Shown: positions 1 to 24,082 of the stretch, one piece after another
How positions within the stretch are numbered: position 1 is the first letter of the stretch
Layout: every line of letters begins with the position of its first letter
DNA from: Nitrosomonas communis
GTDB taxonomy: Bacteria > Pseudomonadota > Gammaproteobacteria > Burkholderiales > Nitrosomonadaceae
Length of the DNA: 37,094 nucleotides
Direction of reading: 5' to 3'
NCBI RefSeq assembly: GCF_024102715.1
Contig: NZ_JAGFJM010000099.1
Location: forward strand, 1 to 37,094
Program-made: the position numbers and the translations under genes
The notes under the pieces: model-generated
The model's database searches: none
Told to the model about the DNA's origin: nothing
The model's input: the letters and a program-made list of their open reading frames with translations, nothing else

Positions 1-768
1 CTGTTCGTAAGAAGGAAGGACTTACCATTGCGCAGGCGGCAGCGCATTTTTGCGTGGGAATTGCCAGCGTGACGCGCTGGGTGAAGAATCCCAATCCCAA
101 GCAGACCCGTAACAAACCGGCGACGAAGATCGACATGATGGCGTTGGCCCGTGATGTGCAGGCGTTTCGACCAGGTGTAAGCGAAAAAGGTATCGGCCAC
201 GCGCTGCGGCGTATGAACATCAGCTATAAAAAAAACACTGCAGCATCCCAAAGCGGACGAAGACAGACGGCATACCTTCCAGGAGACGATTAAGGCGTAT
301 AAGGCTCAAAACCGCGCCATCGTCTATATTGATGAGAGTGGTTTTGCTCACGATATGCCACGAACACATGGGTATGCGCCCATTGGCAAGCGGTGTCACG
401 GTGTGTGTAATTGGCATGCCAGAGGCCGCGTCAATGTGATCGGCGCGTTGATTGGCAAATGTCTTCTGACGGTGGGATTGTTCAAAAGCAATATTGATGC
501 AGATACTTTTTTCGGCTGGACGGTACACGATTTGTTGCCAAAACTCCCGCCAGCATCAGTTGTGGTTATGGATAACGCGACCTTCCACAAAAGACAGGAT
601 ATTCAAAATGCAATCACACAGGCCGGACATACGCTTGAATATCTGCCAGCATATTCACCAGACCTTAACCCCATTGAGCACAAATGGGCACAAGCCAAAG
701 CAATCAGAAAACAACAAAACCAAACCGTTTAGCAACTCTTTAAAATTGAATCATTTTATGTGACGTAG
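1..768 (+). pseudogene. IS630-family transposase, frameshifted, 5'-truncated by window edge
   Basis: The frame is open from the window edge (about nt 3), encoding an N-terminal helix-turn-helix (TIAQAAAHF...SVTRWVK), and runs to a stop near 293. The catalytic half continues in another frame. The switch falls at a run of eight A at 228-235: seven A would give the expected continuous ISYKKTLQHPKADE. The second part shows a DDE pattern: D in YIDESG, D in VVMDNATFH, E in NPIEHKWA. A TAG at 730-732 looks premature, because the same frame continues (QLFKIESFYVT) to a TAG at 766-768. Some IS630 elements express a fused protein by frameshifting at A runs, so the A8 tract could be functional; the additional in-frame stop favours decay. 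The gene is opposite in orientation to the host element, consistent with later insertion. Confidence 0.85.
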
Positions 769-897: not shown

Positions 898-944
898 AAG
901 TCTTTTTTGAGAACTTCACGAACGAACCAGTCTTGAGTAATCAT
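852..944 (-). CDS. small ORF (30 aa) coupled to the helicase gene
   Basis: An ATG at 944 overlaps the stop of the helicase gene in an ATGA arrangement, the same coupling seen between the two upstream genes of this operon. It encodes 30 residues beginning MITQDWFVREVLKK and ends at 852. The product matches no family I recognise. It may be the start of a longer gene cut short by mutation or by the nearby IS630 insertion, because GGGGACA repeats and the transposase follow immediately. Evidence is only the start-stop overlap and reading frame. Confidence 0.3.
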   Translation of the reverse strand: MITQDWFVREVLKKDFVPNSAICPQSQKTD

Positions 945-2866
945 AGGTCGCCACCCTCAATAGCGCGGCTGTTTATGATGTAAGCCCATACTGTTTTATT
1001 TAAGGCCGCTATCCTTGGCTTCTGTTGTGTGCGATCATTCCCAGGGGTTAGCCATCCCTTGTTGGTGAGCGTTGCAATTGCGTACTTCAGTTCAAATCCT
1101 TTGCAAAGCTCACCCTTGAACGCTTGTGATTCAACAAGATATTGAGTCTCACCATCTTCGGTTCTGGTAAATCCTGAACAGCTATGAACCTTAGCCAGCT
1201 CATCAGGGGTAGCATCGTGAGCGGGAAACCGACTGCCACCATATGTTTGCAGGTAGGCCGATACCTGATCCAGCAATGCCTTGTCATCGTGTCCGACACC
1301 ACCGCCTGATTGCGCTAGCCAATCACTGAAGCATCGATGTGTCGCAGATAACGCTGAACCCTTTTTCCATCCGGTAACGCCGTACTTTGTCGCCAACTCG
1401 CCAGCATAAGCCACTAGCGCGAACCGCTCGGCAACCCTGCCAACTTCTGGCGGATGATTAGCGGGCAGATTGAAGCTGTTAACGATAGCCCTTATCGCCT
1501 CTTTAACGCCAGGCGCAAGCGCCAAATAGTCACCGGTCAGTTTTTCAAGAAACGCTACGCCAGCCGTCCCGTAATATTTACGTGATGCCTCCTTCATCTT
1601 CCCCGAAAACTCTTTACCGTCCGTGCACCCGTGAAGTTCTTCAATCGTGTACCAACCTGAACCGGTATCACAAGGAATGCTGGGCAACCTCACCGCTTGC
1701 CCTCCCTTGGCTTTTTTCCCCGTACTTTCAATATGCTGCGTCAAGTCAATCTCGCCTGAAGATAGCAATAGAGTTTTCCAGGTGGTCAATGGCCTTGCGT
1801 AAGCCTCCTTGCTCATCCGCTGTTTACCTTGACCGTTCGCAATCAAATATGCGGCTTGCCCTGCTTCCCTTGGGTCGATTTGTCCAAGATCATCAAGAAT
1901 CAGAATGTTGTGATTTCTCGCAAGGCAAAGCGCCTCCAGTCCATTTGTCGTAGTGCGCCACTTTTTGGCGAATGAGTCAGGATGTCCCCACACACTTGCG
2001 GCAGGATCAATCAAGGTGCTGGTCTTGCCTTTAGATGTTTGCCCCGTAAATTGAAATCCGCCGCCAGACTCACCCGCAAGTTCAACCAGCACGCCAGCAA
2101 ATGAACAGCTTATAGAGAATGTCATTCGGCTATTTTCAGCAGCCATTGATGCAATGTTGGCTTTCCATTCGTCCAGCGTGCCTTTTTCTGAAAAATCAGC
2201 CGATGCCGCACCTTGATAGACAATCATGTCATCGCCGCTTTTGTTGCCGATCACGCGCGAATTGTGAACATATCTGCCGCTACTCCATCCTACCCGATCA
2301 ATGCATCGCGCTCTCTTGTCTGCTTTATGAGTCAACACGTAATCGCACAGCAGCTTTCTTGCTTTCGAGTTGGTGCTGATAATCAATCCCCCACTCGCAA
2401 GCATCTTTCTAAACTCGCTCTGATCTGTCGATTGCAACAATTCAGCAGGACATGCCCACGTATGCTCGTGATTGTCGTTGTCACGCCATGACAAGAGCCG
2501 TCCCCAATTACTTTGGCTGTAGTCTCTCGTTTCGGCAAGCACCTTTAGCGGGGCACACAGCCACGTATAAGCCGGGTCTCCATCTTCGTTTTCTTCGGTG
2601 AAATACACTCCATTTCGACGGCCTTTTTGGTACTCAATCACCTCGAAATTGGATTTGTCCCCACTTGTCTCCACCTCATTTTTTTCATTTGGAGACAAAT
2701 CAGAATCGTCGAAACCCGCATGAATGCTTGATTCTTCGTTTTTGTCCCCATTGTCCCCAGTGTCCCCATCAAAATTAACATGGTCTGCGTTTTCTTCAGG
2801 CAGATAATGAAGAACATCATTGTCATCGTAATAAGCTTGTTCCACCATTTGCTTTAAGCTGGTCAT
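941..2866 (-). CDS. DUF927-family helicase/replication protein
   Basis: This 641-residue protein is a probable replicative helicase of an integrative element. Residues 1-80 are acidic and low-complexity. Residues about 85-500 resemble the DUF927 module: Walker A GQTSKGKTS at 275-283 (K281, T282) and Walker B ILILDDLG with D325/D326. The C-terminal 150 residues are likely a DNA-binding or regulatory region. In phage P4 the primase and helicase are one protein (alpha); here they appear split, the zinc-finger part being the gene immediately upstream with an ATGA overlap, so the two are probably made and used together. A GGAGGGG ribosome-binding site precedes the ATG. The acidic segment is encoded partly by GGGGACA repeats (reading GDTGDNGD). 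DUF927 assignment comes from motif and overall resemblance; helicase activity is inferred. Confidence 0.8.
   Translation of the reverse strand: MTSLKQMVEQAYYDDNDVLHYLPEENADHVNFDGDTGDNGDKNEESSIHAGFDDSDLSPNEKNEVETSGDKSNFEVIEYQKGRRNGVYFTEENEDGDPAYTWLCAPLKVLAETRDYSQSNWGRLLSWRDNDNHEHTWACPAELLQSTDQSEFRKMLASGGLIISTNSKARKLLCDYVLTHKADKRARCIDRVGWSSGRYVHNSRVIGNKSGDDMIVYQGAASADFSEKGTLDEWKANIASMAAENSRMTFSISCSFAGVLVELAGESGGGFQFTGQTSKGKTSTLIDPAASVWGHPDSFAKKWRTTTNGLEALCLARNHNILILDDLGQIDPREAGQAAYLIANGQGKQRMSKEAYARPLTTWKTLLLSSGEIDLTQHIESTGKKAKGGQAVRLPSIPCDTGSGWYTIEELHGCTDGKEFSGKMKEASRKYYGTAGVAFLEKLTGDYLALAPGVKEAIRAIVNSFNLPANHPPEVGRVAERFALVAYAGELATKYGVTGWKKGSALSATHRCFSDWLAQSGGGVGHDDKALLDQVSAYLQTYGGSRFPAHDATPDELAKVHSCSGFTRTEDGETQYLVESQAFKGELCKGFELKYAIATLTNKGWLTPGNDRTQQKPRIAALNKTVWAYIINSRAIEGGDL
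2656..2767 (-). repeat. GGGGACA repeat array inside helicase gene (minus orientation)
   Basis: The complement TGTCCCC occurs at 2656-2662, 2743-2749, 2752-2758 and 2761-2767. The last three have the same 9-nt period as the array at 777-801. Read on the minus strand, the triplet is almost the same sequence as the plus-strand triplet about 2 kb away, so the two form a long imperfect inverted pair around most of the helicase gene. Confidence 0.6.
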
Positions 2867-3327
2867 TTTCGCCCCTCCAAATATTGCAACGCCTCATTAA
2901 TGCGCTTGCAAACGTCAGTCAGATAATCCACGTCTGACTGACAAGGCTTTTTACCATTAAGAAGAAAGTCATTAATGGCGATCAAAACAACCAGCAAATC
3001 CTTTTCGAGGGCGTGCAGCAGCTGCCAAGCGCTAAATCCGCTGCGCTGTTGTTTTTCATAACGTGGGTTGTCAGCAAGAGGGAATAGCGCTGACGGATCA
3101 ATACCGAGCGCATTAACAATATCAAGGCCTTTTGCGCCGCAGGCATGACAATACATGACGACAACGCCATCAGGTTTTACAGTTACCGTCATTGACGGAT
3201 TTTTATCGTCGTGAACTGGACAGCAAGCAAGATATCGACCTTCACCGACTCGCTTAACTTTCTGTAGATGTGGTAAAATATCGACTCTGTTTTGTTTCAA
3301 AGTCGTTGTTTTTAAAGGAGCGTTCAT
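2863..3327 (-). CDS. CHC2 zinc-finger primase-like protein
   Basis: The 154-residue protein has a DnaG-type N-terminal zinc-binding domain. After a short helix (VDILPHLQKVKRVGEGRYLACC), it shows CPVH followed about 25 residues later by CHAC, the CHC2 ligand pattern, with the usual HDDKNPSMTV loop between. No TOPRIM catalytic core is present, so the protein alone is probably not a full primase. It likely supplies template recognition to the DUF927 partner encoded directly downstream (4-nt ATGA overlap). The ATG at 3327 has an AAGGAG Shine-Dalgarno, but that site lies inside a hairpin (3314-3341). It starts 15 nt after the AlpA-like gene stop, so the two are co-transcribed. Confidence 0.8.
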   Translation of the reverse strand: MNAPLKTTTLKQNRVDILPHLQKVKRVGEGRYLACCPVHDDKNPSMTVTVKPDGVVVMYCHACGAKGLDIVNALGIDPSALFPLADNPRYEKQQRSGFSAWQLLHALEKDLLVVLIAINDFLLNGKKPCQSDVDYLTDVCKRINEALQYLEGRK

Positions 3328-3342: not shown

Positions 3343-3582
3343 TTATTGGCCACTGCGGCTTTTCTTGATCTGAGCCGCCAGCCATTCGTCTATCTCGTGC
3401 TCAACCCATCCCACCGCTTTAAGTCCCACTCTAATAGGCTTGGGAAAAGTCGGGTCATACTCATGTGGCCGCTTCGGATTGAGTTTCATCTTTCCGTAGA
3501 TCGTTGAACGCGAAAGTCCAAGACGAGCCTCTACTTGTTTGCGTCGAAGAATTGCTAATGATTTTTTGATTTGCGCTGCCAT
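3343..3582 (-). CDS. AlpA-family (MerR-like winged helix) regulator
   Basis: The 79-residue product begins MAAQIKKSLAILRRKQVEARL. It has the AlpA pattern: a helix-turn-helix (RRKQVEARLGLSRSTIYGKM), a FPKPIRVGLKAVGW segment and a terminal VEHEIDEWLAAQIKK helix. AlpA proteins, first found in cryptic prophage CP4-57, are positive regulators of excision or integrase expression in P4-like elements. The ATG at 3582 is chosen because AAGGAT lies 7 nt upstream; an in-frame ATG at 3663 would add 27 residues unlike the family and overlaps another small ORF. It sits between the leader region and the replication genes, consistent with control of the element. Family call is strong; its target here is inferred. 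Confidence 0.85.
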   Translation of the reverse strand: MAAQIKKSLAILRRKQVEARLGLSRSTIYGKMKLNPKRPHEYDPTFPKPIRVGLKAVGWVEHEIDEWLAAQIKKSRSGQ

Positions 3583-3601
3583 GTTTAATCCTTTTTTGTA
3601 T

Positions 3602-3775
3602 TCACCGGAATATACCGGCGTGAACAGGATTATTAAGCACGGAAATAGGCCGTTTTGCGCCATTTTCCGTGTTTTGAACCACTAAAACCACCCTGCCTTC
3701 ATTTGAGTCGATGACAAGATCAGAATGACGCATGGAGATAAGTTCACGCGAATGCGTGTATTGAATTTTGTTCAT
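3602..3775 (-). CDS. small leader protein, 57 aa, unknown function
   Basis: ATG at 3775 with GGAG 8 nt upstream opens a 57-codon frame (MNKIQYTHSRELISMRH...) ending at TGA 3602-3604, 19 nt before the AlpA-like start. It fills the space between the immunity RNA and the AlpA gene, where P4-like elements often carry short ORFs. No signal peptide, membrane segment or known motif is visible. An inverted repeat (CACGGAAA at 3638-3645 with TTTCCGTG at 3664-3671) lies within it and could be a regulatory hairpin. Support is the ribosome-binding site, spacing and operon fit; function is unknown. Confidence 0.5.
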   Translation of the reverse strand: MNKIQYTHSRELISMRHSDLVIDSNEGRVVLVVQNTENGAKRPISVLNNPVHAGIFR

Positions 3776-3983
3776 GATGTGTGCTCCGGTTCGTTTTATG
3801 AACCGCCATCACTCTTTGCGAGAAGTGGTGGCAGACCGAAACAGGGTCGCAAATCCGGTGGAGCACCGGCAAACCTTTCGGTTTCCCTGTCCAGCCTGCC
3901 ATAAGAGGAACAACAGGCGAAATAATAGTCGTATTAAGTTTGCGACCATTTGCCGCTCCAATCAGGTTTGCGATCCTGACCAC
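3744..3983 (-). CDS. Ash-like leader ORF overlapping the immunity RNA
   Basis: A 79-codon frame starts at GTG 3983 (GGAG upstream) and spans the CI/C4-like RNA. The core, MAGWTGKPKGLPVL followed by CDPVSVCHH, resembles the recurrent Ash-type leader peptides of P4-like islands, where a similar G-Q/K-PKG-x-P stretch is simply the immunity RNA read as protein. It overlaps the 57-aa ORF out of frame. It may be translated, but its conservation may reflect RNA pairing rather than protein function, so I rank the RNA as the primary feature. Confidence 0.4.
   Translation of the reverse strand: MVRIANLIGAANGRKLNTTIISPVVPLMAGWTGKPKGLPVLHRICDPVSVCHHFSQRVMAVHKTNRSTHHEQNSIHAFA
3815..3821 (-). promoter_or_regulatory. 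seqC-like target downstream of the immunity RNA
   Basis: Minus-strand TCGCAAA lies 8 nt after the closing stem of the immunity RNA, the position of seqC in the P4 arrangement. It is complementary to the exposed TTTGCGA. Confidence 0.5.
3829..3901 (-). ncRNA. P4 CI / P1 C4-like antisense immunity RNA
   Basis: On the minus strand, TGGCAG (3901-3896) pairs with CTGCCA (3834-3829), and ACAGGG (3890-3885) with CCCTGT (3846-3841). Inside are two perfect hairpins, AAACC-GAAA-GGTTT (3884-3871) and CCGGTG-CTC-CACCGG (3869-3855). Between the second hairpin and the closing stem lies a single-stranded ATTTGCGA. This is the cloverleaf-like shape of C4-type RNAs. The TTTGCGA segment (3853-3847) is complementary to TCGCAAA copies upstream (3973-3967, 3945-3939) and downstream (3821-3815), matching the seqB to seqA/seqC scheme of P4, where pairing causes premature termination of the replication transcript. 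All pairings were read directly; the immunity role is from the family. Confidence 0.75.
3939..3945 (-). promoter_or_regulatory. seqA-like target, second copy
   Basis: Minus-strand GGTCGCAAA (3947-3939) is complementary over 9 nt to TTTGCGACC in the immunity RNA (3853-3845). It is the longest of the three flanking complements and lies upstream of the RNA on the same transcript. Confidence 0.55.
3967..3973 (-). promoter_or_regulatory. seqA-like target, first copy (TCGCAAA)
   Basis: Minus-strand TCGCAAA within GATCGCAAAC is complementary to the exposed TTTGCGA of the immunity RNA. It also forms the loop of a small hairpin (TCAGG-ATCGCAAA-CCTGA), which would present it for pairing. Confidence 0.5.
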
Positions 3984-4004
3984 GTTTATCTCCGTGGCAA
4001 AGAA

Positions 4005-4034
4005 AGGATAAGTCTAGCGCGATTACAATGTCAA
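4005..4034 (-). promoter_or_regulatory. leader promoter (PLE-like) of the element's replication operon
   Basis: On the minus strand a -35 TTGACA (4034-4029) and a -10 TATCCT (4010-4005) are separated by 18 bp. A transcript would start near 3998 and run through both seqA-like copies, the immunity RNA, the AlpA-like gene and the replication genes. It overlaps the last few bases after the integrase stop. Confidence 0.6.
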
Positions 4035-4041
4035 GGAATGG

Positions 4042-5355
4042 TCAGGAAGATTGAAATGCCTTGCCAAACCTGCCAATGATTACCTTGCGGCCTTCCTCAA
4101 TCTGGCTATCTACGAAGTCAGCCCACCATTGAAGCATTCCTCGCCGCTGATCAGCATACTGCGCTCGGTTATAAACACCTCGAATACCCTTGGTTTCGTG
4201 AGCCAAGCATTTCTCAATCCAGTCTGAATTGAAACCTGCTTCATGCAAGTGAGTTGATGCTGTTCGACGAAAATCATGGATTACAAAATCACGCACGTCG
4301 ATATCTAGCGCTCTCACCGCAACATTAAGGGTGCTGTGGGCTATAGGTTTGTTCAAGCTGCCCCGACTAGGGAATACCCACTCTGAACCGCTTGCTAAAC
4401 TCATTAATTCCTCAAACATTGCTAGCACCTGCCGGGACAATGGAACAAGGTGTGGCTTGTCTTTCTTCATGCGCTCACTGGGGATAGCCCACTCCGCTTT
4501 GCTAAAGTCTATTTCTTCCCACTTGGCTTCGATCAGCTCAGTTTTTCGCACCATGCACAAAATCAGCAAATGCAGCGCTAATTTGTGTGACCGATTTATG
4601 CTGGACTGGTAGATACCACGAAGCAGTTTCCCAATTTCAACTGATGTCAGAGCTACATCACGACTCTTGGCTTGAGCAATGAATTTCGCCTCAATCGCTG
4701 CTGCTGGGTTAAATTGAGTTTTCTCACGTGCAATGGCGTAGGCAAATAACCGCTTCAATACATTGCGGGTTTGCAGTGCCATTTGATCGGCTCCACGGTT
4801 CTTGATCTTGTCGGTAATTGCCAGAATGTCGGTTACGGTCACATCGGCTATTTGTTTCATGCCTATTGCTGGAATTACGTCTTTCTCCAGTACCCGTTTG
4901 ATGTTACGCGGATTACTGTTCGCCGGTTCCACGATTTCAGAATACCAGCGCCAAGCGAACGCCTCCACAGTGTCAACAGCCTTTCGAGCTTCTTGCTTAG
5001 CTTTAAGCTTTTCGTGGGTTTGAATACACCAGCTTTGAATGAAGCTTTGCGCCAGCTCCTTGACGGTAGGGGAGGCATCGTAAGGGATAGGGTCACCACG
5101 CTTCAAAGCCATGGGGGATAAACCACGTCCGGCCAGCGCCTTGCAATTCTCACGCCATGTTCGGGCCTCGGCAAGGGAGTAGGTCGGGTAGTCGCCTAAT
5201 GTGACTTTCTCTTGCTTCCCGACCAGCCGATAACGCATTCGCCAGATCTTCGTGCCGCTAGGTTGTACCTCGATATGTAGCCCGCCGCCGTCAGATTCAG
5301 AAAAAGTCTTATCTGCTGGTTTTAACATTCGCAGTTTCACATCCGATAAAGCCAT
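4042..5355 (-). CDS. P4-type tyrosine recombinase (integrase)
   Basis: This 437-residue protein catalyses site-specific integration and excision. Residues 1-90 match the DUF4102 arm-binding domain (SDGGGLHIEV, then TLGDYPTYSLAEAR), about 100-210 the core-binding domain, and 230-420 the catalytic domain. Catalytic residues visible: R270 (CMVRKTEL), a lysine near 297-300, H360 and R363 (HDFRR), H386 (LAHE), and nucleophile Y395 in VYNRAQY, followed by the typical RRGMLQWWAD tail. Length is normal for the family and nothing looks broken. AGGAT precedes the ATG. The start faces the mnmE 3' end, with repeated GGGAACA sites in between, fitting att-adjacent arm sites and possible self-repression. 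It is transcribed in the same direction as mnmE, so read-through from that operon could also express it. Confidence 0.92.
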   Translation of the reverse strand: MALSDVKLRMLKPADKTFSESDGGGLHIEVQPSGTKIWRMRYRLVGKQEKVTLGDYPTYSLAEARTWRENCKALAGRGLSPMALKRGDPIPYDASPTVKELAQSFIQSWCIQTHEKLKAKQEARKAVDTVEAFAWRWYSEIVEPANSNPRNIKRVLEKDVIPAIGMKQIADVTVTDILAITDKIKNRGADQMALQTRNVLKRLFAYAIAREKTQFNPAAAIEAKFIAQAKSRDVALTSVEIGKLLRGIYQSSINRSHKLALHLLILCMVRKTELIEAKWEEIDFSKAEWAIPSERMKKDKPHLVPLSRQVLAMFEELMSLASGSEWVFPSRGSLNKPIAHSTLNVAVRALDIDVRDFVIHDFRRTASTHLHEAGFNSDWIEKCLAHETKGIRGVYNRAQYADQRRGMLQWWADFVDSQIEEGRKVIIGRFGKAFQSS

Positions 5356-5369
5356 AATCCACCATCCTT

Positions 5370-5612
5370 TCAGGGAACAATTCTGATTATGTTCCCTAAG
5401 TAATTCTTATATTTGGGAACAAATAAATAATCAGGGAACAATTGTTTAAAGCTCCTATTTATAAGCCTTAAAACTTATTAAAACTGTCTATCCATTCTAC
5501 TCAACTTGATTTGTCGCAAGAAAAATAGTACCAATTTAGCTATCTTCTGGAAAAATGTTCCCTTAATAGGGAGCAGACAAATAATCAAATGGGAACAGAT
5601 CAGGGAACAATT
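5370..5612. repeat. GGGAACA repeats: candidate integrase arm-type sites
   Basis: The 367-nt interval between integrase and mnmE has no convincing gene but carries seven GGGAACA heptamers. Five are on the plus strand (5373, 5415, 5434, 5591, 5603) and two inverted (5390-5396, 5556-5562). Three of them sit in a perfect 13-nt repeat TCAGGGAACAATT (5370-5382, 5431-5443, 5600-5612). Two paired arrangements (5415/5434 and 5591/5603) flank a 130-nt central gap. This pattern fits arm-binding sites for the DUF4102 domain; binding is inferred. Confidence 0.6.
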
Positions 5613-5722
5613 TTAACCGGATTAGGCCGGAACAAACAAGACAATTACAGAATGGAAAGACGTTATTTAAAAGGTTTATCAGGTGGTTATGTTGAATATA
5701 CCGGAAGCGCCCGGAAGTTTAG

Positions 5723-5740
5723 TTATTTCCCAATACAAAA
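5723..5740 (-). other. attachment-site core in the mnmE 3' end
   Basis: The last 18 nt of mnmE on the minus strand read TTTTGTATTGGGAAATAA (CIGK plus stop). The equivalent last 18 bp of trmE/mnmE is the established chromosomal attachment site of Salmonella Genomic Island 1 and related islands, and this sequence is very similar. The integrase and arm-like repeats lie immediately beyond it. The second copy expected at the other end of the element was not found in the window. Confidence 0.6.
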
Positions 5741-10429: not shown

Positions 10430-11797
10430 TTAATTTGCTGCAACAAAATAGCTGGCGACCTTTTCTAGATCTTCCAGCGCGAGTGTGCCTGCAGCTAATC
10501 GTAATCGTAGATAGGCAAGTAAATAACTATATCGTGCTTCTGCCAGATCAACCTGGGCGGAAAACAACTGGCTTTGTGCATTCAGCAAATCAAGATTAAT
10601 CCGTATACCTCCCTGGATACTTTTCTCAGTAGCTTGCACCAGCAGGAGCGCTGAATCGACTGCTAGCTCTAGGGATTCAATTCGTTTAATACTACTTTGC
10701 AATAATTGGTATTGCCTGCGCAACTCCACTAATACTCTATCGCTCATTGCATCTAAATCAGCTTGGGCGCGTGCATGATTCGCTTGCGCTTGATTAGTGG
10801 TCGCAACCACTCTCCCGCCTGCATATAAGGGGAAGCTGACTTCTACACCGACACTGGCAAAAGTCGCATCACGATTTGGTACAATAAAAGATGCAGAGTT
10901 TTGTTTGTTCAGGCTTGCTACCAAATCAACGCGAGGTGTATGACCAGCACGGCTTTTTTTCACCTCAAGTTGGCTGGAAGTGACGATATGGCGCTGGGTC
11001 ACCAGTTCGGCATTGCGTTCAAGCGCCATCTCGCGCCAACTTTCAAAATCAGGTGGATGAATCGGCTGTGCTTTAAAAGAACCGGATAATGAATCAAGCT
11101 GCATCACTTGTTGCCCTACTATTTTTTCTAAGGCTAAGCGGGCGACATCCAGCTCATCTTGCGCTTCAATCACTTGGGCCTGTGACAATGCATGTCTGGA
11201 GAGCGTTTCAAGCACATCTGTCTGCGTGCCTTCACCTCTCTTCAGCATATGTTCATTAACTTGCTTCAGCTCCTCCAACGCTTTATGCTGGGCATTCGCT
11301 AAGAAGAGTCGATCCTGTGCAAGCAGTGTTCTGACATAAGCTTCCACTAGCCGCACGACAAGTTCATAACTCTGGCCCAAAAATTTGGCTTGACTGGAAT
11401 TGGCGCGTGCAAATCCTTGATCATAGCCAGCTGCTGCCTCCATATTTAGCAATGGTTGCCGCAATGTCAGTGTGGTTACCTGGCTATTAAAATCGAGATC
11501 TGATTTGTTCGTTATTGTCCTGTTAAATTGATCAAGTTCATCTATTTTTTGTGTGCCCCGGCTCATTCCTTGCAAATGAGTAACAGACAAAGTTGGTAGT
11601 AGACCAGCCCGGCCAAGCGCAATTGCTTGCTGACCAGCTTCATTTTCATGAGTTGCCGCACGAAAGGTCGGATCATTCCTTAAAGCAGCTTCATAGGCGT
11701 CTAATAAGCCCATTGCCTGAATGCCCCCCACCTGCCACAAGAAGGCAAGAGTGAATACCGATGATGGGGGGAGCTTCTTAAATAAGCGCAGCGGCAC
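10430..11797 (-). CDS. TolC-family outer-membrane channel of a type I secretion system
   Basis: The 455-residue protein starts with a basic, hydrophobic leader (residues 1 to about 28, cleavage likely after GIQA). It then follows the TolC/OEP plan: LLDAYEAALRNDPTF, an internal repeat of two long helical halves, and a second half opening with a conserved VEVSFPLYAGGR strand. Such proteins form trimeric beta-barrel plus periplasmic alpha-tunnel channels. The start is 2 nt after the HlyD-like stop, so it is the last gene of a three-gene secretion operon. Substrate cannot be read from the window. It could also serve drug efflux, but the neighbours make type I secretion more likely. Confidence 0.9.
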   Translation of the reverse strand: MPLRLFKKLPPSSVFTLAFLWQVGGIQAMGLLDAYEAALRNDPTFRAATHENEAGQQAIALGRAGLLPTLSVTHLQGMSRGTQKIDELDQFNRTITNKSDLDFNSQVTTLTLRQPLLNMEAAAGYDQGFARANSSQAKFLGQSYELVVRLVEAYVRTLLAQDRLFLANAQHKALEELKQVNEHMLKRGEGTQTDVLETLSRHALSQAQVIEAQDELDVARLALEKIVGQQVMQLDSLSGSFKAQPIHPPDFESWREMALERNAELVTQRHIVTSSQLEVKKSRAGHTPRVDLVASLNKQNSASFIVPNRDATFASVGVEVSFPLYAGGRVVATTNQAQANHARAQADLDAMSDRVLVELRRQYQLLQSSIKRIESLELAVDSALLLVQATEKSIQGGIRINLDLLNAQSQLFSAQVDLAEARYSYLLAYLRLRLAAGTLALEDLEKVASYFVAAN

Positions 11798-11799
11798 GG

Positions 11800-13152
11800 C
11801 TAATCTTCCACAAGCGAGGTATGAATCCGATCGAGAATGGGCTTTAGCAGGTAATTCATCAGCGAACGCTCGCCGGTTTTTACAAAAATTTCTACCGGCA
11901 TGCCTGCACGTATTTGCAGATCAGCAAGTAGTTTCATGCCTTCCGGCATTACTTTGGCTTTCAATTGATAATAAGGCATCCCCGTTCGCTCATCGGTCAA
12001 ACGATCAGCCGACACGGTCGTTACAACACCGGGTATGCGCGGAGTTTTGTTTTGATTAAAGGCAGTAAATATGAGATCTACGTCTAGCCCAGTATGCACT
12101 TTGTCAATAAGATGAACCGGTACTTGCCCCTCAATAACCAGCATATCTTCCGATGGCACAATATCCATCATGCGAAATCCTGGTCCAATCACACCACCAC
12201 GGGTGAAGATATTTATCCCTACCACAATGCCCTCTACCGGCGCTTTCACTAAAACGTTGGCCAATTCGAAATCTTGCGCCAGCAGTCGGCTATTGAGCGC
12301 TTCGGCCTCCCGTTGCACATCTGTCAATTGCTGGCGAACTTCCTTCTGATGCTCCTCCAGGCGCTGTACCCGGCGCAGATTAAGCTCTGAAATTTGACGC
12401 TGGATACGGCCGATATTACCGTTATCTTCGGAAATATCACCATTTAATTGAGCATAAGTACGTTCCAGTTCGAGCACACGATTCCTCGGCACAAAGCCGT
12501 CTCGTGCTAATTCCCGCATATTATCGAGTTGCTCTTTCAGAAACTGCAATTGCTGTTCCTTGCTTGCGCGCGATGACTCTAATCCGCGCAACTGGATAGT
12601 TAAACCCGCAATATTTTCTTCCAGCGCGGCCAATTCATGTTTCAATACTGATTTGCGCGAGGTAAACAACTGTTGCTGCAACGCGATGCTACTGGTTGCG
12701 CGGGGATCATTTGTGGCAGAAAGTAGAAAGGGTGGAAAATCGATCTCAGACTTATTATCCCGCTCAGCTATCAATCGTGCTTCGACAGCCCTGGCAGTAA
12801 TGAGTTGGCCGCGTGTTACTTCTGCCTGCGCCTTAACCTGAATATCATTCATTTGCACAAGCACCTGGCCGGCTTTGACTCTGTCTCCTTCCTTCACCAG
12901 AATATCATCTACAATACCACCTGTTTGATGTTGAACTGCTTTGCGATTAGTCGCTACCATCACTGATCCAGAAAGGGGTACTCCTTTGTCTAATGGTGCA
13001 AATATTGCCCACAGCAAAAAACCACCGACGCCAATCAGTACGATCCACCAGCCAATGCGTGCATGAGTTGTTTCATCCGTCTTGATCAGGCTTCCTGTAT
13101 CTGTTAGCGCAGTTTCAGTCGTTGTTATATCCTTTTGACTTATGAGCTTCAT
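11800..13152 (-). CDS. HlyD-family periplasmic adaptor (PrsE-like)
   Basis: This 450-residue membrane-fusion protein links the ABC exporter to the outer-membrane channel. A cytoplasmic tail (1-33) is followed by one membrane segment (IGWWIVLIGVGGFLLWAIFA). Then come a lipoyl-like half (VKEGDRVKAGQVLVQM), a long coiled-coil hairpin (about 130-290, rich in Q, E, L and R) and the second lipoyl and beta-barrel parts (VKAPVEGIVVGI...). It ends with the common MSYLL-like tail seen here as LMNYLLKPILDRI. It lies 120 nt downstream of the ABC permease-ATPase gene and 2 nt before the channel gene. Confidence 0.93.
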   Translation of the reverse strand: MKLISQKDITTTETALTDTGSLIKTDETTHARIGWWIVLIGVGGFLLWAIFAPLDKGVPLSGSVMVATNRKAVQHQTGGIVDDILVKEGDRVKAGQVLVQMNDIQVKAQAEVTRGQLITARAVEARLIAERDNKSEIDFPPFLLSATNDPRATSSIALQQQLFTSRKSVLKHELAALEENIAGLTIQLRGLESSRASKEQQLQFLKEQLDNMRELARDGFVPRNRVLELERTYAQLNGDISEDNGNIGRIQRQISELNLRRVQRLEEHQKEVRQQLTDVQREAEALNSRLLAQDFELANVLVKAPVEGIVVGINIFTRGGVIGPGFRMMDIVPSEDMLVIEGQVPVHLIDKVHTGLDVDLIFTAFNQNKTPRIPGVVTTVSADRLTDERTGMPYYQLKAKVMPEGMKLLADLQIRAGMPVEIFVKTGERSLMNYLLKPILDRIHTSLVED

Positions 13153-13272
13153 ATCTCTCTTCTATTCCTGCATCGTTACACAACGTGACAAAGTCATTAA
13201 CTTATATAGCAAGTTTATTCATCTCCCTGTTTGCTCGTCAGGGGCAATGATGTCAAACTGGAATATACCTCA

Positions 13273-15012
13273 TTAAGCAATCTGCTCCTTAATCTGCCGT
13301 TGTGCTAATAGCGCTTGCTGCGCCGCCTGCTTTTGTTTATTCAATTCAGCCAGAACTTGGTCAGTAGGTCCAAACATCTGAAGTGCACCTTCACGCAATA
13401 GCAGTAGCTTGGTCGTGGCAGAAATAATACTCGTGCGGTGAGTGATTACTACAATCGTTTTACCACGGTTACGCAAATCAACAATTGCCGCCAATAAAGC
13501 GCGCTCACCGACATCATCCAGATTGGAATTAGGTTCATCCAGCACAATTAGTGAGGGATCACCATACATGGCGCGTGCCAGACCGATACGCTGTTTCTGT
13601 CCGCCGGACAGGCCGCCGCCGCCATCTCCCAGCAACGTATCATAGCCTTTAGGCATGCTCAGAATCATTTCATGAACGCCCGCCCGCTTAGCAGCCAGAA
13701 TCACTTTTTCAGAGTCGATTTCGCCAAAACGAGCAATATTTTCACTAATGGTGCCAGCAAACAATTCAATATCCTGGGGCAGATAGCCAATATGAGGCCC
13801 CAACTCATCCTTATTCCACTGATATACATCGGCACCATCAAGTCGTACCTTACCTGCAGTAGCAGGCCACACACCAACCAGCAAGCGCGCGAGCGTGGAT
13901 TTGCCCGAACCACTTGGCCCAATGACGCCTAATACTTCCCCAGCGCCAACTGCAAATACTAATCCCTTGATAATAGGCACTTTTGAGCCTGGTGGTGCTG
14001 CCACGACATTTTCAACCGACACTGCACCTTGCGGTTTAGGCAATGCCATACCAGGCTGGCGGTCAGGGTTTTCTTCGAGCAATTTGGTCAGTCGTTCATA
14101 GGCGCTACGAGTACTGCCAAATTGCCGCCAGACGCTGATCAGCAACTGGACAGGACTAATCGCTTTACCCAGTAAAATTGAACCGGCAATCATCATACCA
14201 GGAGAAATACTGTCTTCTAAAACTAGCAGCGCACCCAGTCCCAGCATCAGTGATTGTAACGCAACCGAAGTGGCTTTACTGAAAGCGCTGACAACACCTG
14301 ATTTTTCACTTGCTTCTGCCTGTAAATTCAAAAAACGGCTATGGAGTTTGTACCAGCGTGTCTGTAAATTGGGCAGCATGCCCATTGCTTCAATCACCTC
14401 AGCATTACGCAGATTATTGGTCGCCATTGTGGTCGAGGCCACTGCCACAGCATTAGCCTCTGCGAGCAGTTTATGTGAAATTTTTTCGTTGATATAGGCT
14501 AGCAGCACCAGGACAGCCGTGCCAAGCAAAGCAAACACACCCAGCCAGACATTAAACAAAAAAATGACTAGAAGATAAATCGGAAACCAAGGTGCGTCAA
14601 AAAAGGCGAATAAAGCATTACCAGTCAGAAATTGGCGTAGATTGGTCAAATCTTGTAAAGCCTGGCCGGCATTACTATTGCCATGCCGCAAACTTTGTTC
14701 GAAAGCGGCAGTATAGACACGCTTGTTCAACTTCAGATCAAATTGCGCGCCTACCCGTATCAAAACAAAACTGCGGATATACTCCAGTGCGCCCATAAAT
14801 ATATAAGCTCCCAGCATGATCAATGTTAGCATCAGCAACGTCATTTCGTTACGGCTTGTTAATACACTGTCATAGAGTTGCAGCATATATAAGGCCGGCA
14901 TCAGCATCAGCAAATTAATGACAGCGCTGAAGACACCAACCGTACGAAATGCACGCTTAAAACTGATTAATATCTCTGCAAGTTCGTTATAAGGTGTATT
15001 TTTTGCTTTCAT
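13273..15012 (-). CDS. type I secretion system permease/ATPase (PrsD-like)
   Basis: The 579-residue ABC exporter combines an N-terminal membrane domain (about 20-310, several hydrophobic helices) with a C-terminal nucleotide-binding domain. Walker A is GPSGSGKST at 365-373, the signature is LSGGQKQR, Walker B LIVLDEP, and the H-loop ITHR. It lacks the N-terminal C39 peptidase-like domain of bacteriocin and HlyB exporters, so it belongs to the PrsD/AprD branch, which exports C-terminal-signal proteins such as RTX enzymes or adhesins. It is first in the operon; its adaptor and channel follow. No RTX repeat protein is visible nearby. Confidence 0.94.
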   Translation of the reverse strand: MKAKNTPYNELAEILISFKRAFRTVGVFSAVINLLMLMPALYMLQLYDSVLTSRNEMTLLMLTLIMLGAYIFMGALEYIRSFVLIRVGAQFDLKLNKRVYTAAFEQSLRHGNSNAGQALQDLTNLRQFLTGNALFAFFDAPWFPIYLLVIFLFNVWLGVFALLGTAVLVLLAYINEKISHKLLAEANAVAVASTTMATNNLRNAEVIEAMGMLPNLQTRWYKLHSRFLNLQAEASEKSGVVSAFSKATSVALQSLMLGLGALLVLEDSISPGMMIAGSILLGKAISPVQLLISVWRQFGSTRSAYERLTKLLEENPDRQPGMALPKPQGAVSVENVVAAPPGSKVPIIKGLVFAVGAGEVLGVIGPSGSGKSTLARLLVGVWPATAGKVRLDGADVYQWNKDELGPHIGYLPQDIELFAGTISENIARFGEIDSEKVILAAKRAGVHEMILSMPKGYDTLLGDGGGGLSGGQKQRIGLARAMYGDPSLIVLDEPNSNLDDVGERALLAAIVDLRNRGKTIVVITHRTSIISATTKLLLLREGALQMFGPTDQVLAELNKQKQAAQQALLAQRQIKEQIA

Positions 15013-15120
15013 CTAAAAATATTAATGAGCAACAGAATTTCCGGGATACCCACTGTGCCAGAAAAATCAGCTGCACTATCCATGTAAAATTTAGCCGTTG
15101 CGGCATATTGCCTGGCCTGA

Positions 15121-15146
15121 CTATAACATCAAGTCTACTGTTATAG
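15121..15146. promoter_or_regulatory. inverted repeat upstream of the secretion operon
   Basis: CTATAACA (15121-15128) and TGTTATAG (15139-15146) are perfect 8-bp arms with a 10-nt spacer. They lie in the 185-nt gap between the SDR gene and the type I exporter, about 110 nt upstream of the exporter start. A tandem AGTTATT repeat lies just beyond. This could be an operator or a weak transcript-end hairpin; there is no T tract. Confidence 0.4.
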
Positions 15147-15197
15147 CAGAGAAGTTATTGTGAAGTTATTCATGTAAGGGCATTCTTAAACCATTCA

Positions 15198-16121
15198 TCA
15201 GGGCAAATCCTCTTTCATCAATAGAAACGGCTTGGGTGCATAGCCAAAATCACGCGCAGCTTCTGCGTAATCAAAGACCAGATTACGATTCATTCGTTCA
15301 GCCATGGCAATTGTCCAGTGACGATAACGTGGTAATTGCCGCAATGTATTGACTACCAATCGAAAAAGCCAGTGCGGTATCGTTAACATACAGGGAGGCT
15401 GATCTAATGCTTTGAAGACTCGTTTAATCATTTCGCGATAAGTCAGTGTCTCCGCACCGCTAATATTATAAGCTCGGTTGATTACGTTACTTGCTAAGAA
15501 AGCAGCAAAGCAGGCAGCTGCAACATCCTCTACATGAACCGGTTGACGTAAGCCTTGCGCGCTTCCTAGTAAAGGAAAAAATTTAAAGCGCCGGATAAAT
15601 CGGATTATTTCAGTAATATTTTTATCACGCCCCAGACCATAAATCAGTGTGGGGCGCAAAATAATCCATGTTACGTCACTCTTTTCAGCCCATGCCCGTA
15701 GCATTGCTTCTCCTTCAGCCAGGTGTTGTGCAACCTTTTTTTCTCCACTGTCAGAGGAGTCATCTTTGGTAAAGATACTTGTGGAAGACAACACCACAAT
15801 TCTTTGTGCTCCTTGTGCGGTCAGAAAGTCGAAATAAGCCGGCAATGTCCAGATTGGTGCCAAATACAACCACGAAGTGATGTTGTTATCAGCTGGTGGG
15901 AGTTTTCCCATTCTTGCCATGTTAAGCTCATGTGCTAGCTGGTACCAGATTACTGCCGGATTCTGTCGCATGATTTCAGCTTCAACCTGGCGGCGGGAAA
16001 ATGCCACGGCTTGCCAGCCATGCTGCGCTAACAATGGCAATACACATTTGCCTACAGAACTGGTTGCGCCAATCACCCCTATGCGCTGATCAGCCACGCC
16101 GCAATCCAGCAAAACTGCCAA
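15198..16121 (-). CDS. atypical NAD(P)-dependent epimerase/dehydratase (extended SDR)
   Basis: The 307-residue protein has a Rossmann nucleotide-binding start (RIGVIGATSSVGK), then IVVLSSTSIF at the usual active-site strand, ILRPTLIYGLGRD (conserved RPxxxYG) and RQPVHVEDVAAA, all typical of extended SDRs acting on sugar nucleotides or related compounds. The classical YxxxK pair expected after the serine strand is not visible: the region reads STSIFTKDDSSDSGEKK. It may therefore be an atypical SDR with altered or no redox activity. It overlaps the upstream GT2 gene by 32 nt and ends the glycan gene run, so a role in sugar modification is inferred. Confidence 0.8.
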   Translation of the reverse strand: MAVLLDCGVADQRIGVIGATSSVGKCVLPLLAQHGWQAVAFSRRQVEAEIMRQNPAVIWYQLAHELNMARMGKLPPADNNITSWLYLAPIWTLPAYFDFLTAQGAQRIVVLSSTSIFTKDDSSDSGEKKVAQHLAEGEAMLRAWAEKSDVTWIILRPTLIYGLGRDKNITEIIRFIRRFKFFPLLGSAQGLRQPVHVEDVAAACFAAFLASNVINRAYNISGAETLTYREMIKRVFKALDQPPCMLTIPHWLFRLVVNTLRQLPRYRHWTIAMAERMNRNLVFDYAEAARDFGYAPKPFLLMKEDLP

Positions 16122-16995
16122 GATGGCTGATCGTGTGAAAGGCTACTACTGCACCGAAACGCAGCCATATGCCAACAGTTACGAACCACATCAAAATACC
16201 AGGATATTGGTTACGAAAAAATTTCTGGTAAAAACGCACCATTCCTCGGTGTTTGTGCCACGCCACAAAAATCGGGCGAGCCTGACTGCATACTCCCTTG
16301 TAATGTAGTACCTGCACATCGGGAACAAATACTATCTTCCAGCCTTTCTGCCGGAAACGCATGCACCAGTCCAGATCTTCACAATGAAGAAAATAACCTT
16401 CATCCCAAGTGCCAATTTCTTCGATCGTTTCCCGGCGAACCAGCATCAATGCGCCTGAGATGGCTTCCACTTCGATTGGCTTCTCTGGCAGAGATTGCCG
16501 GTGCAGATGAAAATCAAAAAACAGCCGTGGCCAATATCTGGCCAAGCGATAAAGCCCCAGCACTCGCACAAGTGAACGCCAGGGAGTCGGGATCGCGCGC
16601 CGGCTACCGCCTTGCTCACTCCCATCTGAATTGAGCAGTCGCCCGCCAACCATCCCAATGCGATTATCCTGTGCCATTACTTGTAATAATCGTTCTACTG
16701 CACCAGGTGGTAACATGCAATCTGGATTCAAAAACAAAACAAATGGTGCAGTCGCTACTTTTAGACCGATGTTGCATCCCGCAGCAAATCCCCTATTTTT
16801 ATCCAGGCAGATGACTTGTAAACGAGGTTCTGCTGGAAACCTTTCTGTTAGCTCAATTAAACTCGTATCAGAGGAAGCATTGTCAACAACGATTACCTGT
16901 TGTGCTTGCTTCAGCGCTGCGCCAATACAGCCGGCTAGCGATAAGCCGGCATTATAATTTACCGTTACGATAGCAACATGCGATTGATAATTCAT
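16090..16995 (-). CDS. GT2 glycosyltransferase (rhamnosyltransferase-like)
   Basis: The roughly 301-residue GT-A fold enzyme begins VAIVTVNYNAG, has IVVDNASSDTS, NRGFAAGCNIGL, the nucleotide/metal site FLNPDC (in place of a DXD), and the acceptor-side HCEDLDWCMRFRQKGW. It resembles WbbL-type rhamnosyltransferases that extend surface glycans. A C-terminal hydrophobic stretch (GILMWFVTVGIWLRFGAVVAF) suggests membrane contact. The ATG at 16995 is preferred because GAGAGG lies upstream; the ATG at 17007 would leave no spacing. It follows the 1287-residue fusion gene and overlaps the SDR gene by 32 nt, giving a tightly packed operon. Confidence 0.88.
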   Translation of the reverse strand: MNYQSHVAIVTVNYNAGLSLAGCIGAALKQAQQVIVVDNASSDTSLIELTERFPAEPRLQVICLDKNRGFAAGCNIGLKVATAPFVLFLNPDCMLPPGAVERLLQVMAQDNRIGMVGGRLLNSDGSEQGGSRRAIPTPWRSLVRVLGLYRLARYWPRLFFDFHLHRQSLPEKPIEVEAISGALMLVRRETIEEIGTWDEGYFLHCEDLDWCMRFRQKGWKIVFVPDVQVLHYKGVCSQARPIFVAWHKHRGMVRFYQKFFRNQYPGILMWFVTVGIWLRFGAVVAFHTISHLGSFAGLRRG

Positions 16996-17019
16996 TCGGC
17001 CAAACATCCTCTCACTTGG

Positions 17020-20000
17020 TCAATCCTGCTCAGCTAAAATCGATTCTACCGTCTGCTGAAAACGTTGCCGGTTACAATCGCGCTCAACGGCTTGTAATGC
17101 TGATAAGCGCTTGGCTGTCCACAATGCAGAATCGTTATAAAGAGCGAGGCAAGCTTTGGCAAAGCTTATGGCGCTATCACCTACAGCAATTTCATCCTGC
17201 CAGCCTAATTGGGATGCAATCAATGGCGTGACCACCATCGGCAATCCTTGCGCGGCTGCTTCGTGAGCTTTATGAGGAATACCGGCTGCAAATCTCGTTG
17301 GGACAATGAATAGCCGGGCGCTTGCATAAAACGCTGAAACAGAGTCGACCCTGCCATGAATGCGAACCCTATCGGAGGCAAACCCCAACACGGCTGGCGC
17401 TTCGCACAGGCCAATGATGTCGAGGTGTGCACTTCCCTGCGCGCTAATTATTGGCCATACATGACGTAAGAACCAAATCAGACTGTCCGCATTCGGCGAC
17501 GAATCTGACGGCATCGCGCCGACGAATAAATAACCCGCACGTTCCTGGAATCCGGGCATTTTTTCAACGATATCAAGCGCATGTCCAAGAACAAATACAT
17601 TTTCCTTACCATAGCGAACAAAATGATCTGCTTCGGCTTGTGAAACCGTAATGATACGGTTTGCATACTTGGTAATTGCCAATTCCTCGTGAATCAAAAG
17701 ATCGCTTTTTTCAGGAGAAAATGGTTTTCCATTTACCTCCGCCTGCACAATCTCACGTAGGGAAAACATCGCTTCTGCATCGTAAACGAGCATTTTTCCA
17801 GAAAACCATTCTGGATGGCAGGAAACAATGCTGTTGACGACGACCATGTTATGGGGACGGCTGACAATGATAGCATGATAAAAATTCTGCCGCTCTTCAA
17901 GAAAATCCTGCAATCCAAAAGCACCGCGATTGGCAGCAATTTCAACGGTTTCCGGTAAAAATTTGCGTGCCTCTTCCCACAGTTCATGAGGAAACTGCAA
18001 AGGATAATGTGTTACGAAGCAGCCAATCTGATCCAGCGATTTGATAAATTCGAGTGCCCGCGGAAATCCGCTACCCAGATCGCGCCGTGGCAGCCGATCA
18101 TCGATGAAAAGGATGCGCCGACATCCTTTTTTGAAGCGCTGCCGTGCAAATAATACATTAGAAGCTGATGGCGTCAATTGAGATTGCAGAAAAGCTGGTT
18201 GCTTGGAAATAAATACCGATCGGTTCTTTTTCTGCAAGGCAAAGGCGCGATCAGATTTAGCATCCGAGCTGGCGAATTCGAAATGGCGTATGCATACCGC
18301 AGGATCATAGATCACACGATAACCAGCCTGCCAAAGCCTGGCACAGTAATCACTTTCTTCGTAATACGCAGGAATGTAGTCAACATCGAATTGCCCCATC
18401 GATGCAAACAAGGCTCGGCGTGTCAGTAAAAATGCTCCAGAGCAATAATCCACATCCCTGACATGACTGAAAATCGAATCGTCGGGATCTTCGCCGCGGC
18501 CGTAGCCTGAGCAGCTGCCATCCTGCCAGATAATGCTGCCTGCCTCCTGAAGCTTGCCGCTCCATAAGAGAATTTTCCCTCCTACCGCGCCAGCATCCGG
18601 CGTATTCCTCATTCGTGTAACTGCCGCCGACAAAGCGCCAGGCAGCAGCACAGCATCATTATTGAGAAAAAGCAGGTATTCTCCGCTAGCGGCTTTGGCA
18701 GCACGATTACAGGCTAAAAGAAAGCCTTCGTTCTCATGATTGCGAATAATCTGCGCACCCTCGATACGGTCTAGCAATAAAGCTGTAGCATCTTCTGAAG
18801 CATTGTCGACGATAAGGGTCTCAAATGTAACCGAGCGCTCTTCTGCTAAAGCGGTAAGACAGCGGTATGTCAAGCCAGCCTGGTTATATAAAACCAGGAG
18901 AATGGAAACAACTGGGCTGGAGGATTCTGGCAGCTTTAATTTCTGATTTGATTCCAGGAATTTTAAAAGAGCAGCATGACTTTCTGCGCGTACAGCTTCT
19001 TTGTCGATGGAAAGCATCTCGCTGTGTTTACTTCCTGAAATCAATCCGCCTCCCCACAGTTTTTGCAGAACCCGTCCCATGGGGGATCGCAAGGCATAGC
19101 TGCGCAGGCGGATACGCAGCGTGCTATTAATCGGCAAAGCGTGATAAATCGCACGGCAAGCCCGGAAAATCGAGCGTCTGAGAAAACCGGATTTTCGTAA
19201 CTTCGTCATTAGCCAGCGAAGCGGCGCAGTCAAACGCCAGGAAGTTGACGCCAGCAATGCTGTCCTGTCGCGCTCTAAAATGGCATAGGCATCCTGTAAA
19301 CCTTGTAAGTCAGCTTTTATTTTAGCAAGGGAAGAACGGGACGTTTGAAGATCCCTATCTAGCATCTGTAATTTATTTTCCGTGTCCTGCAATTTACTTG
19401 TTAAAGTTCTCGCCTCTTCAGCACGTGCAAAAGCGATGGCAAGCTCATTCGATGGAATCTGTGCCCGCCATTTTTCATAGAAAAGGCTGCGTGCCTGCTG
19501 CACAAGATGGCTATCCGAGACATGGGAAAGACCCGAATTTCCGGCAAGACGATAGGTTGCGGATACTCCAGCAATATGCGTAAATGGGGTAGTGAGTGCA
19601 AGCTGGGCCCAAAAATCCCAATCCTCATAAACATCAAATTGTTCATCGAATCTGGCGCCAGACAACAGCAAGCTACGCTGGAAAAGTACAGCGTGAATCG
19701 GCATGAAATTCGCCTGCCATAAACGGGAGCGATCCCATTCCTCATCAAGGATGTACAGCTCATGAAAATGATGGTCGACTACTCTGACACCCGTGTAAAC
19801 CACGCGCGCAATCGCTGTTTGCGCAGTGTGCACCAGCCGATGGATATGATCGGGATCAATCGTATCATCATCATCAAGCAACAACACCCAATCCCCTCGC
19901 GCATTATCAAGACCGGTATTGGCTGCGCTAACGCGCGATAAGCCGTTCTTTCCCTGGTTGACTAATCGCAAGATAATGTGAAAATGCTTCTCATTGAGTT

Positions 20001-20883: not shown

Positions 20884-20951
20884 TAATATCTTCTCTCTCG
20901 CTTAATGAATAAACATTCAAAACAATGGTAAAACAGTCAAATTGCTTTTTT

Positions 20952-22814: not shown

Positions 22815-24082
22815 TAATTTGCCTTCCATGCATGCGGTACAGCGAAATATCCCTGTAGCCTGCCTTCCTGTCGGACATGTAGCGTAGCTACACCGCTTGC
22901 TGAATCATAGAGATGGATGCCTTGTTCGCACAGCAAATAAACAGTAATCAAGTATTCCCCTTTGAGCAAAGGCAATCGTTCAAAAATAGCACTGATTTGT
23001 CCCGCTCCATTGAGCGTGCGCTCCAATGTGACTTGATCTTCCCAGGTGGCTGCGCTAGTCAGTGTGCGTCCATCCATCGCATGGATTGTCACCGCAACAG
23101 TAGGACAGGGGATCGCAGGATCGGAAACAAACGATACTTTCACTCTCACTGTTGATTGCCCGCTTATCACAATGGCGTCACTATCCGCTTTCCCATCGAT
23201 GTAAACAACCACTTTATCCAGGTGCGCACGCCCGAATGCATATCCACCAGCACTGATCAAAGGCGCTGATACAATTTCATCGCCAGCCGGTACAGCTTGC
23301 TCGGTGGCTGCTAGTACACTTCTGTCTAAAAATGTCTGGTAAGCAGACACGACACGCTTTGCGTCTCCTTCCGCCATTAGCTTGCCATGATCAATCCAGA
23401 GCGCCCGGGAACACAGTGATTCAATTTGGAAAAGAGAATGGGAGCAAAATAAGATCGTTCTGCCACTTTCCTTTAATTGCATGATGCAATTAAAAGATTT
23501 TCGTGCAAATGCACCATCGCCAACTGATAGCGCTTCATCAATGATTAGAATATCAGGATCAATACTCACTGCTACTGAAAATGCCAGACGCACATACATT
23601 CCACTCGAATAAGTTTTGACTGGTTGATCAATAAAATCGCGAATCTCTGAAAAAGTAATAATTTGTTCAATCCGGTCAGCAATTTCTGTTCTGGTCAGGC
23701 CCATGACGGCAGCATTTAGCCAGATATTTTCGCGTCCAGTAAACTCAGGATTAAAACCGGCTCCCAGCTCCAGTAGCGCTGCCAACCGTCCATTTACCTC
23801 CACTTTGCCGCAGGTCGGTGTCAATGTTCCACAAATAAGTTGCAATAAGGTTGATTTACCCGAGCCGTTGCGACCAATTATTCCTATCACTTCTCCGGGC
23901 ATTATTTCCAAATCAATTCCCTGCAGTGCCCATAGTTCCCGGTAATACTGACGTCTGCCACGCCATAGAAACTGCTTTAAGCGATCTATCGGTTGCGGGT
24001 ATAACTGATAACATTTACCGAGACCATCTGCATGCACGGCAGGTTGTAAAGATGCTGATATTCGGCTGACATTCAAGCTCAT
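22814..24082 (-). CDS. wzt: Wzt-type ABC transporter ATPase with glycan-binding domain
   Basis: The 422-residue protein has an ABC domain (about 20-245): Walker A GRNGSGKST (about 70-78), signature YSSGMYVRLAFSVA, Walker B ILIIDEAL, and FCSHSLFQIE at the H-loop. The YSSGM signature is typical of the KpsT/Wzt polysaccharide exporters. A C-terminal extension (about 260-422) is a beta-rich Wzt carbohydrate-binding domain, which in O9a-type systems recognises the modified chain end. The ATG at 24082 is preferred over two upstream TTG codons. A Wzm permease, normally directly upstream, is absent: the gene is preceded by about 370 nt of non-coding DNA and dnaA. The permease may be elsewhere in the genome. 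Confidence 0.9.
   Translation of the reverse strand: MSLNVSRISASLQPAVHADGLGKCYQLYPQPIDRLKQFLWRGRRQYYRELWALQGIDLEIMPGEVIGIIGRNGSGKSTLLQLICGTLTPTCGKVEVNGRLAALLELGAGFNPEFTGRENIWLNAAVMGLTRTEIADRIEQIITFSEIRDFIDQPVKTYSSGMYVRLAFSVAVSIDPDILIIDEALSVGDGAFARKSFNCIMQLKESGRTILFCSHSLFQIESLCSRALWIDHGKLMAEGDAKRVVSAYQTFLDRSVLAATEQAVPAGDEIVSAPLISAGGYAFGRAHLDKVVVYIDGKADSDAIVISGQSTVRVKVSFVSDPAIPCPTVAVTIHAMDGRTLTSAATWEDQVTLERTLNGAGQISAIFERLPLLKGEYLITVYLLCEQGIHLYDSASGVATLHVRQEGRLQGYFAVPHAWKAN

Follow-up and report, generated by a model that had tools for sequence, protein, structure and literature searches.

Antisense RNAs of the C4 class, with which phages P1 and P4 keep themselves silent, are typically trimmed by RNase P to a length near 77 nt; P1 and P7 apply theirs to the ant/icd operon, and satellites of the P4 type carry genes for capsid size, polarity suppression and helper activation (sid, psu and delta). 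In the published description of P1 and P7, where the C4 RNA is likewise processed by RNase P, two words of the molecule are told apart: ribosome-binding sites are partly masked by b', and specificity comes from a' (PMC5320573). Weinberg and colleagues listed the c4 antisense RNA for Proteobacteria and phages, and c4-a1b1 for Gammaproteobacteria and phages (PMC2864571), so that both the family and its spread among Proteobacteria were already known. A comparable layout is described for IsrK/STnc1160 of Salmonella Gifsy-1, in which a leader RNA and a Rho-independent terminator precede a processed RNA sharing complementary sequences (PMC4825925). A literature search on Nitrosomonas together with P4-like elements and integrase returned no paper.

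The locus considered here lies in a 37,094-nt contig of Nitrosomonas communis, the whole of which is called the window. We consider it likely, with a probability of about 0.8, that a C4/CI-type antisense module heads the ORF1-alpA-primase operon of a P4-like island beside mnmE and silences it. The C4 family (RF01695) provides the sole Rfam match at gathering level within the window, on the minus strand and over the full length of the model (positions 1-87), with 51.3 bits (E = 3.5e-07) as against a gathering score of 45 bits. The stretch folds into a cloverleaf with two internal hairpins and GGC on the 5' side of its stem; the fold energy, -41 kcal/mol, compares with a shuffle mean of -25.3 (z = -4.93) and was equalled by none of 200 shuffles. 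Among 16 aligned sequences, of which the window is one, 10 of the 24 consensus pairs show a both-sided change at least once. The original prediction had read such a cloverleaf in the minus-strand leader and had proposed a covariance search with the Rfam C4 model and a comparison of relatives for compensatory stem changes; both have now been made, and both bear it out. A second C4 is present in the same genome (3.05 Mb, 144 contigs), on contig C97, with 60.5 bits.

On the minus strand the order is mnmE, integrase, promoter, leader, C4, ORF1, AlpA, CHC2 ORF and DUF927 protein (Table 1). The last three lie in the downstream operon; the original prediction had noted replication genes together with the RNA. 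ORF1 was without a match in PHROGs and NCBIfam at E 0.001, and AlpA perhaps starts at an inner ATG near 3584.

Table 1. The C4 locus and the genes around it, listed in minus-strand order (positions in the window)
Feature	Position	Strand	Basis
Tyrosine integrase	4042-5355	-	Pfam PF00589, PF13356, PF22022
Promoter TTGACA (4029-4034), 18 bp, TATCCT (4005-4010)	4005-4034	-	Direct reading; relatives' box at similar distance
a1 region CAGG-ATCGCAAA-CCTG, possible hairpin exposing TCGCAAA (3967-3973)	3963-3978	-	Direct reading
b1 TGGAGC, complementary to 6 nt of b'	3955-3960	-	Comparison
Terminator-like hairpin, weak (-5.2 kcal/mol), TATTATTT at 3' end; middle TCGCAAA (3939-3945) in 5' arm	3925-3949	-	
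C4 antisense RNA	3824-3906	-	Rfam RF01695 (51.3 bits), fold, covariation
b' word TGCTCCA, C4 hairpin 2 (loop)	3859-3865	-	Comparison
a' word TTTGCGA, unpaired junction of C4	3847-3853	-	Fold and comparison
a2 region CACTTCTCGCAAAGAGTG with TCGCAAA at 3815-3821, possible weak hairpin	3810-3827	-	Direct reading
b2 target GGAGCAC, ORF1 Shine-Dalgarno region	3781-3787	-	Comparison
ORF1, 57 aa, first ORF after the leader	3602-3775	-	Open reading frame
AlpA-type regulator/excisionase	3343-3663	-	Pfam PF05930, 6.2e-18
CHC2 zinc-ribbon ORF, resembling the N-terminal part of primase	2863-3327	-	Pfam PF01807, 2.6e-09
DUF927 primase/helicase-type replication protein	941-2866	-	Pfam PF06048, 3e-76; PHROG 1139 DNA primase

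Two words of the C4 RNA account for its four contact sites. The junction word a' is complementary to targets on both flanks, over 7 nt upstream and 7 nt downstream. The loop word b', on which the original prediction was silent, is complementary over 6 nt to one leader site and over 6 nt to the ORF1 Shine-Dalgarno region, where the run GGAGCA stands just ahead of the ATG; this downstream match is by itself a weak feature, since a 6-nt run is also present in 15 of the 123 downstream flanks taken from other loci. The b2 stretch (3760-3800) is predicted to be nearly unstructured, and b1 is tied up in the fold of 3907-3960 alone (-16.2 kcal/mol, z = -2.7), where it pairs with the 3' end of that stretch. 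RNAfold of 3945-4000 alone did not choose the a1 hairpin, and the slightly truncated a2 stretch (3805-3826) folds no better than shuffles. Despite this missing support in isolated stretches of the window, the a1 and a2 loops co-vary with a' across relatives.

The comparison across relatives drew on two sets of genomes: the window's own genome with 60 relatives (61 in all), of which 14 held a C4 match, and 399 genomes of the same GTDB order, with a match in 59. From 129 parsed loci, 124 were kept; L132, L145, L150 and L153 were dropped for a second hairpin mis-assigned by the script, and L086 because it duplicates the C4 of L034 within one genome. Four of those kept (L019, L020, L021 and L160) are below the C4 threshold, and seven other sub-threshold matches stand outside the 124. 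The words, a' as the 7-nt junction and b' from the loop, were extracted by script without hand correction, which gave 38 different words for a' and 112 for b'. For every contact the summed longest complementary runs with a locus's own flanks exceeded the permuted means: 834 against 599 for a' upstream, 781 against 513 for a' downstream, 872 against 597 for b' upstream and 888 against 554 for b' downstream. In each case none of 2000 permutations reached the observed sum, a figure that is not a strict probability because related loci share words. All four contacts reach at least 6 nt in 82 of the 124 own pairs, as compared with 47 of 14,432 mismatched pairs, and the window's own values (7, 7, 6 and 6 nt), taken as thresholds, were reached in none of 123 in either foreign direction. 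The matched changes between junction word and targets that the original prediction had proposed to look for are thus present and, together with the C4 match and the covariation, support its view of the locus as a P4 CI/C4-type module. Downstream runs of b' of at least 6 nt occur in 103 of the 124 loci; GGA or AGG lies inside 72 of these 103, and in 98 the next 25 nt contain a start codon (ATG, GTG or TTG), the median distance being 8 nt, values taken without a shuffle control. By this comparison C4 RNAs in the window's GTDB order carry a two-word address, an arrangement that recurs in P4, and cross-immunity between such islands becomes directly testable with reporters.

Exclusion of shared a' words among co-resident islands was considered and rejected, a' being shared in 17 of 188 within-genome pairs and in 393 of 7438 between-genome pairs. 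Avoidance of cross-recognition, scored by a lenient rule, was likewise rejected: the frequency is higher within genomes (5 of 188) than between them (58 of 7438). These pairs give no sign that like excludes like, a point against the preferred reading. Genome G019 holds two C4 RNAs in tandem (L006 and L020) inside about 320 bp (contig C1, 2585037-2585354); the upstream one has a sub-threshold score of 41.7 bits and, by eye, an a' without a target just downstream, and may be a remnant.

The TTGACA-18-TATCCT promoter of the original prediction is present, and relatives have a similarly placed box. Within 220 nt upstream of C4, the pattern TTGACN-16..19-TANNNY was found in 36 of the 124 loci, and for 31 of them the first match lies 124-143 nt from C4; single-base shuffling, repeated 50 times, gave a mean of 2.3 loci and a maximum of 8. 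Further into the leader, a1, b1 and the weak hairpin stand upstream of the window's C4 in the order expected of a P4-type leader, although the stretch matches neither isrK nor c4-a1b1 at E 0.5. An upstream hairpin with a T tract, of -6 kcal/mol or better, is predicted in 84 of the 124 loci under a wider scan, which on shuffled sequences (one single-base round, dinucleotides not kept) returned 5 of 124; a strict scan counts candidate terminators in 75 loci, the number depending on the rule. In the window's genus, 15 of 18 loci reach -6 kcal/mol; the three that do not are the window, L015 (-4.2 kcal/mol) and L019 (none). The leader of the sister C4 on contig C97 resembles isrK (48.1 bits, threshold 50) and c4-a1b1 (39.8 bits), both below gathering.

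Within window 4042-5740 the integrase gene begins next to the 3' end of mnmE. The 3' end of trmE (mnmE) is a known site of the island SGI1 (PMC8409611). Two integrase relatives, 83% and 76% identical, likewise adjoin mnmE, the second with stops; C4 was found neither in the stretches of these closest relatives (L052 and L053) nor in their genomes (G008 and G024), which counts against the preferred reading. The contig does not extend to the far end of the island. When the window's genome was searched with the last 18 bases of mnmE, allowing up to 3 mismatches, the mnmE site and four places with 3 mismatches each were returned, the reversed pattern had 3 matches, and no second att site could be named from this search. 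The window also contains dnaA, dnaN, gyrB and yidC besides mnmE, and its DnaN shares 84% identity with the Nitrosomonas sp. Nm132 protein and 79% with the one from N. communis Nm44, so that the host stands close to Nitrosomonas. Elsewhere in the window (10430-24088) lie exporter-type genes (OEP, HlyD, ABC, Wzt C-terminal domain) and glycosyltransferases, among them an ORF of 1287 aa with PIG-L and several glycosyltransferase domains.

The C4 fold, the four contact sites, the promoter box and the gene order were computed from the sequence. By analogy with P1 and P4, processing, translational block, termination and immunity may be expected to follow. Transcription from the promoter at 4034 would yield the leader transcript, from which C4 would be excised; C4 would then pair, at two downstream places, with its own leader and with that of any incoming sister element, a' binding the a2 sequence and b' the ORF1 Shine-Dalgarno region (b2). 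Translation of ORF1 would thereby be blocked, transcription uncoupled from translation and terminated prematurely, and the replication genes would stay off in the resident as well as in an identical newcomer. Upstream, a1-b1 and the terminator-like hairpin would set the supply of leader to C4, and they may also serve as a decoy for it. The original prediction had spoken of an intact switch, which is plausible, with the reservations that the hairpin is weak, isrK and c4-a1b1 are unmatched, the middle TCGCAAA is probably a terminator arm and the far island end was not found.

Alternatively, the module may be decaying, its fold and words persisting from a recently active element while the terminator in the leader has lost strength and the switch has ceased to work. 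The leader would fit this: the terminator-like hairpin is weak, TATTATTT is an interrupted T tract, and neither isrK nor c4-a1b1 was matched in the window's stretch by Rfam, even at E 0.5. On the island side, moreover, the contig ends in an insertion-sequence fragment, and the second att site was not found. A transposase-like ORF (DDE_3) stands near this end at 355-732; the ORF next to it at 54-293, in a different frame, was without a Pfam match. Against decay, however, each of the four contact sites is matched over 6-7 nt, a promoter box is in place, and int, alpA, CHC2 and DUF927 all have open frames. Even the weak hairpin offers a counterargument: in our reading, two of its pairs differ from those of L108 on both sides yet still pair, although one further pair is broken and another is changed on one side. 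We accordingly regard decay as unlikely.

The hairpin also bears on the TCGCAAA copies. Within C4, 300 nt upstream and 250 nt downstream, the minus strand holds three of them, in the a1 region, the hairpin and the a2 region; when 130 nt upstream and 45 nt downstream were shuffled by single bases 20,000 times, no shuffle held three copies and 2 held two. All three had been named as complements of the exposed junction word in the original prediction, and all three are there; the middle one, however, sits in the 5' arm of the terminator-like hairpin, which that prediction did not mention, and for that reason may not be a C4 target. L108 carries CCGCAAA at this place, and one of the both-sided stem changes between the two creates the extra TCGCAAA. 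The extra copy is rare rather than unique, since two exact copies within 130 nt upstream occur in 4 of the 124 loci, the window among them; in L090 and L095 it seems, by eye, to lie within a second hairpin loop. The middle copy is probably a terminator arm. That it might be a real third site, through which C4 would open its own leader terminator in positive feedback on C4 supply, seems to us quite improbable, and we know of no such control point in P1 or P4. Least probable of all, and hardly to be expected, is that C4 now targets other host or phage transcripts, a trans role proposed for C4-like RNAs of Acinetobacter baumannii (PMC5320573), with the cis targets as leftovers: in the window, as in 82 of 124 loci, four cis sites match a' and b', a finding that speaks for selection still acting on the cis circuit.

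A match to the replication protein was obtained in 25 of 85 genomes of the genus, while a scan of genome contigs confirmed no relatives, and all matches in plasmid and phage records (67 and 19 records) were below 60% identity. The best relatives within the genus are in G010 (56%) and in a broken copy in G028 (59-67% in pieces); a short fragment in G030 is 70% identical. In the G028 island the primase, one of the nearest to that of the window, lies in pieces with other ORFs between; the island has two int-alpA RNAs in tandem (L185:2583-2728; RF02996), and C4 was not found in this stretch. Neither C4 nor int-alpA RNA was found in the G010 and G030 stretches; a G033 stretch combines C4 and isrK with two int-alpA RNAs. 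Tentatively, the RNA module might have been exchanged between island backbones. In genome G401, a match to sRNA-Xcc1 (RF02221, 63.1 bits; L188:7414-7505) shares a stretch with an int-alpA RNA.

P4 itself, run as a positive control, matched C4 with 74.9 bits, isrK with 60.8 and c4-a1b1 with 44.1 (just under the threshold of 46.7). By the same procedure its a' runs are 6 and 6 nt and its b' runs 8 and 9 nt, the 9-nt run lying inside a GGAGG stretch shortly ahead of an ATG. The P4 CI RNA with seqA/seqC shares with the window the C4 fold, the order leader-C4-ORF, and a1/b1 upstream and a2/b2 downstream. The leaders differ: that of P4 matches isrK and has a hairpin followed by seven T, in contrast with the window's weak hairpin, extra TCGCAAA and lack of an isrK match. 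The words also differ, ATTCTCA and TATCCTGTGAAG in P4 as against TTTGCGA and TGCTCCA. The leader-then-processed-RNA layout of Gifsy-1 IsrK/STnc1160, as described, resembles the window's (PMC4825925), although IsrK activates translation of its own read-through transcript and has no matching counterpart here. The int-alpA RNA occurs in related islands of the same genus but belongs to an RNA family different from C4. P1 and P7, compared by published description only, likewise have two words with b' facing a ribosome-binding site (PMC5320573), but in the window C4 heads alpA and primase genes, unlike in P1 and P7. The C4 of this Nitrosomonas island is, accordingly, a further genuine example of the switch used by P1 and P4, and not a new type.
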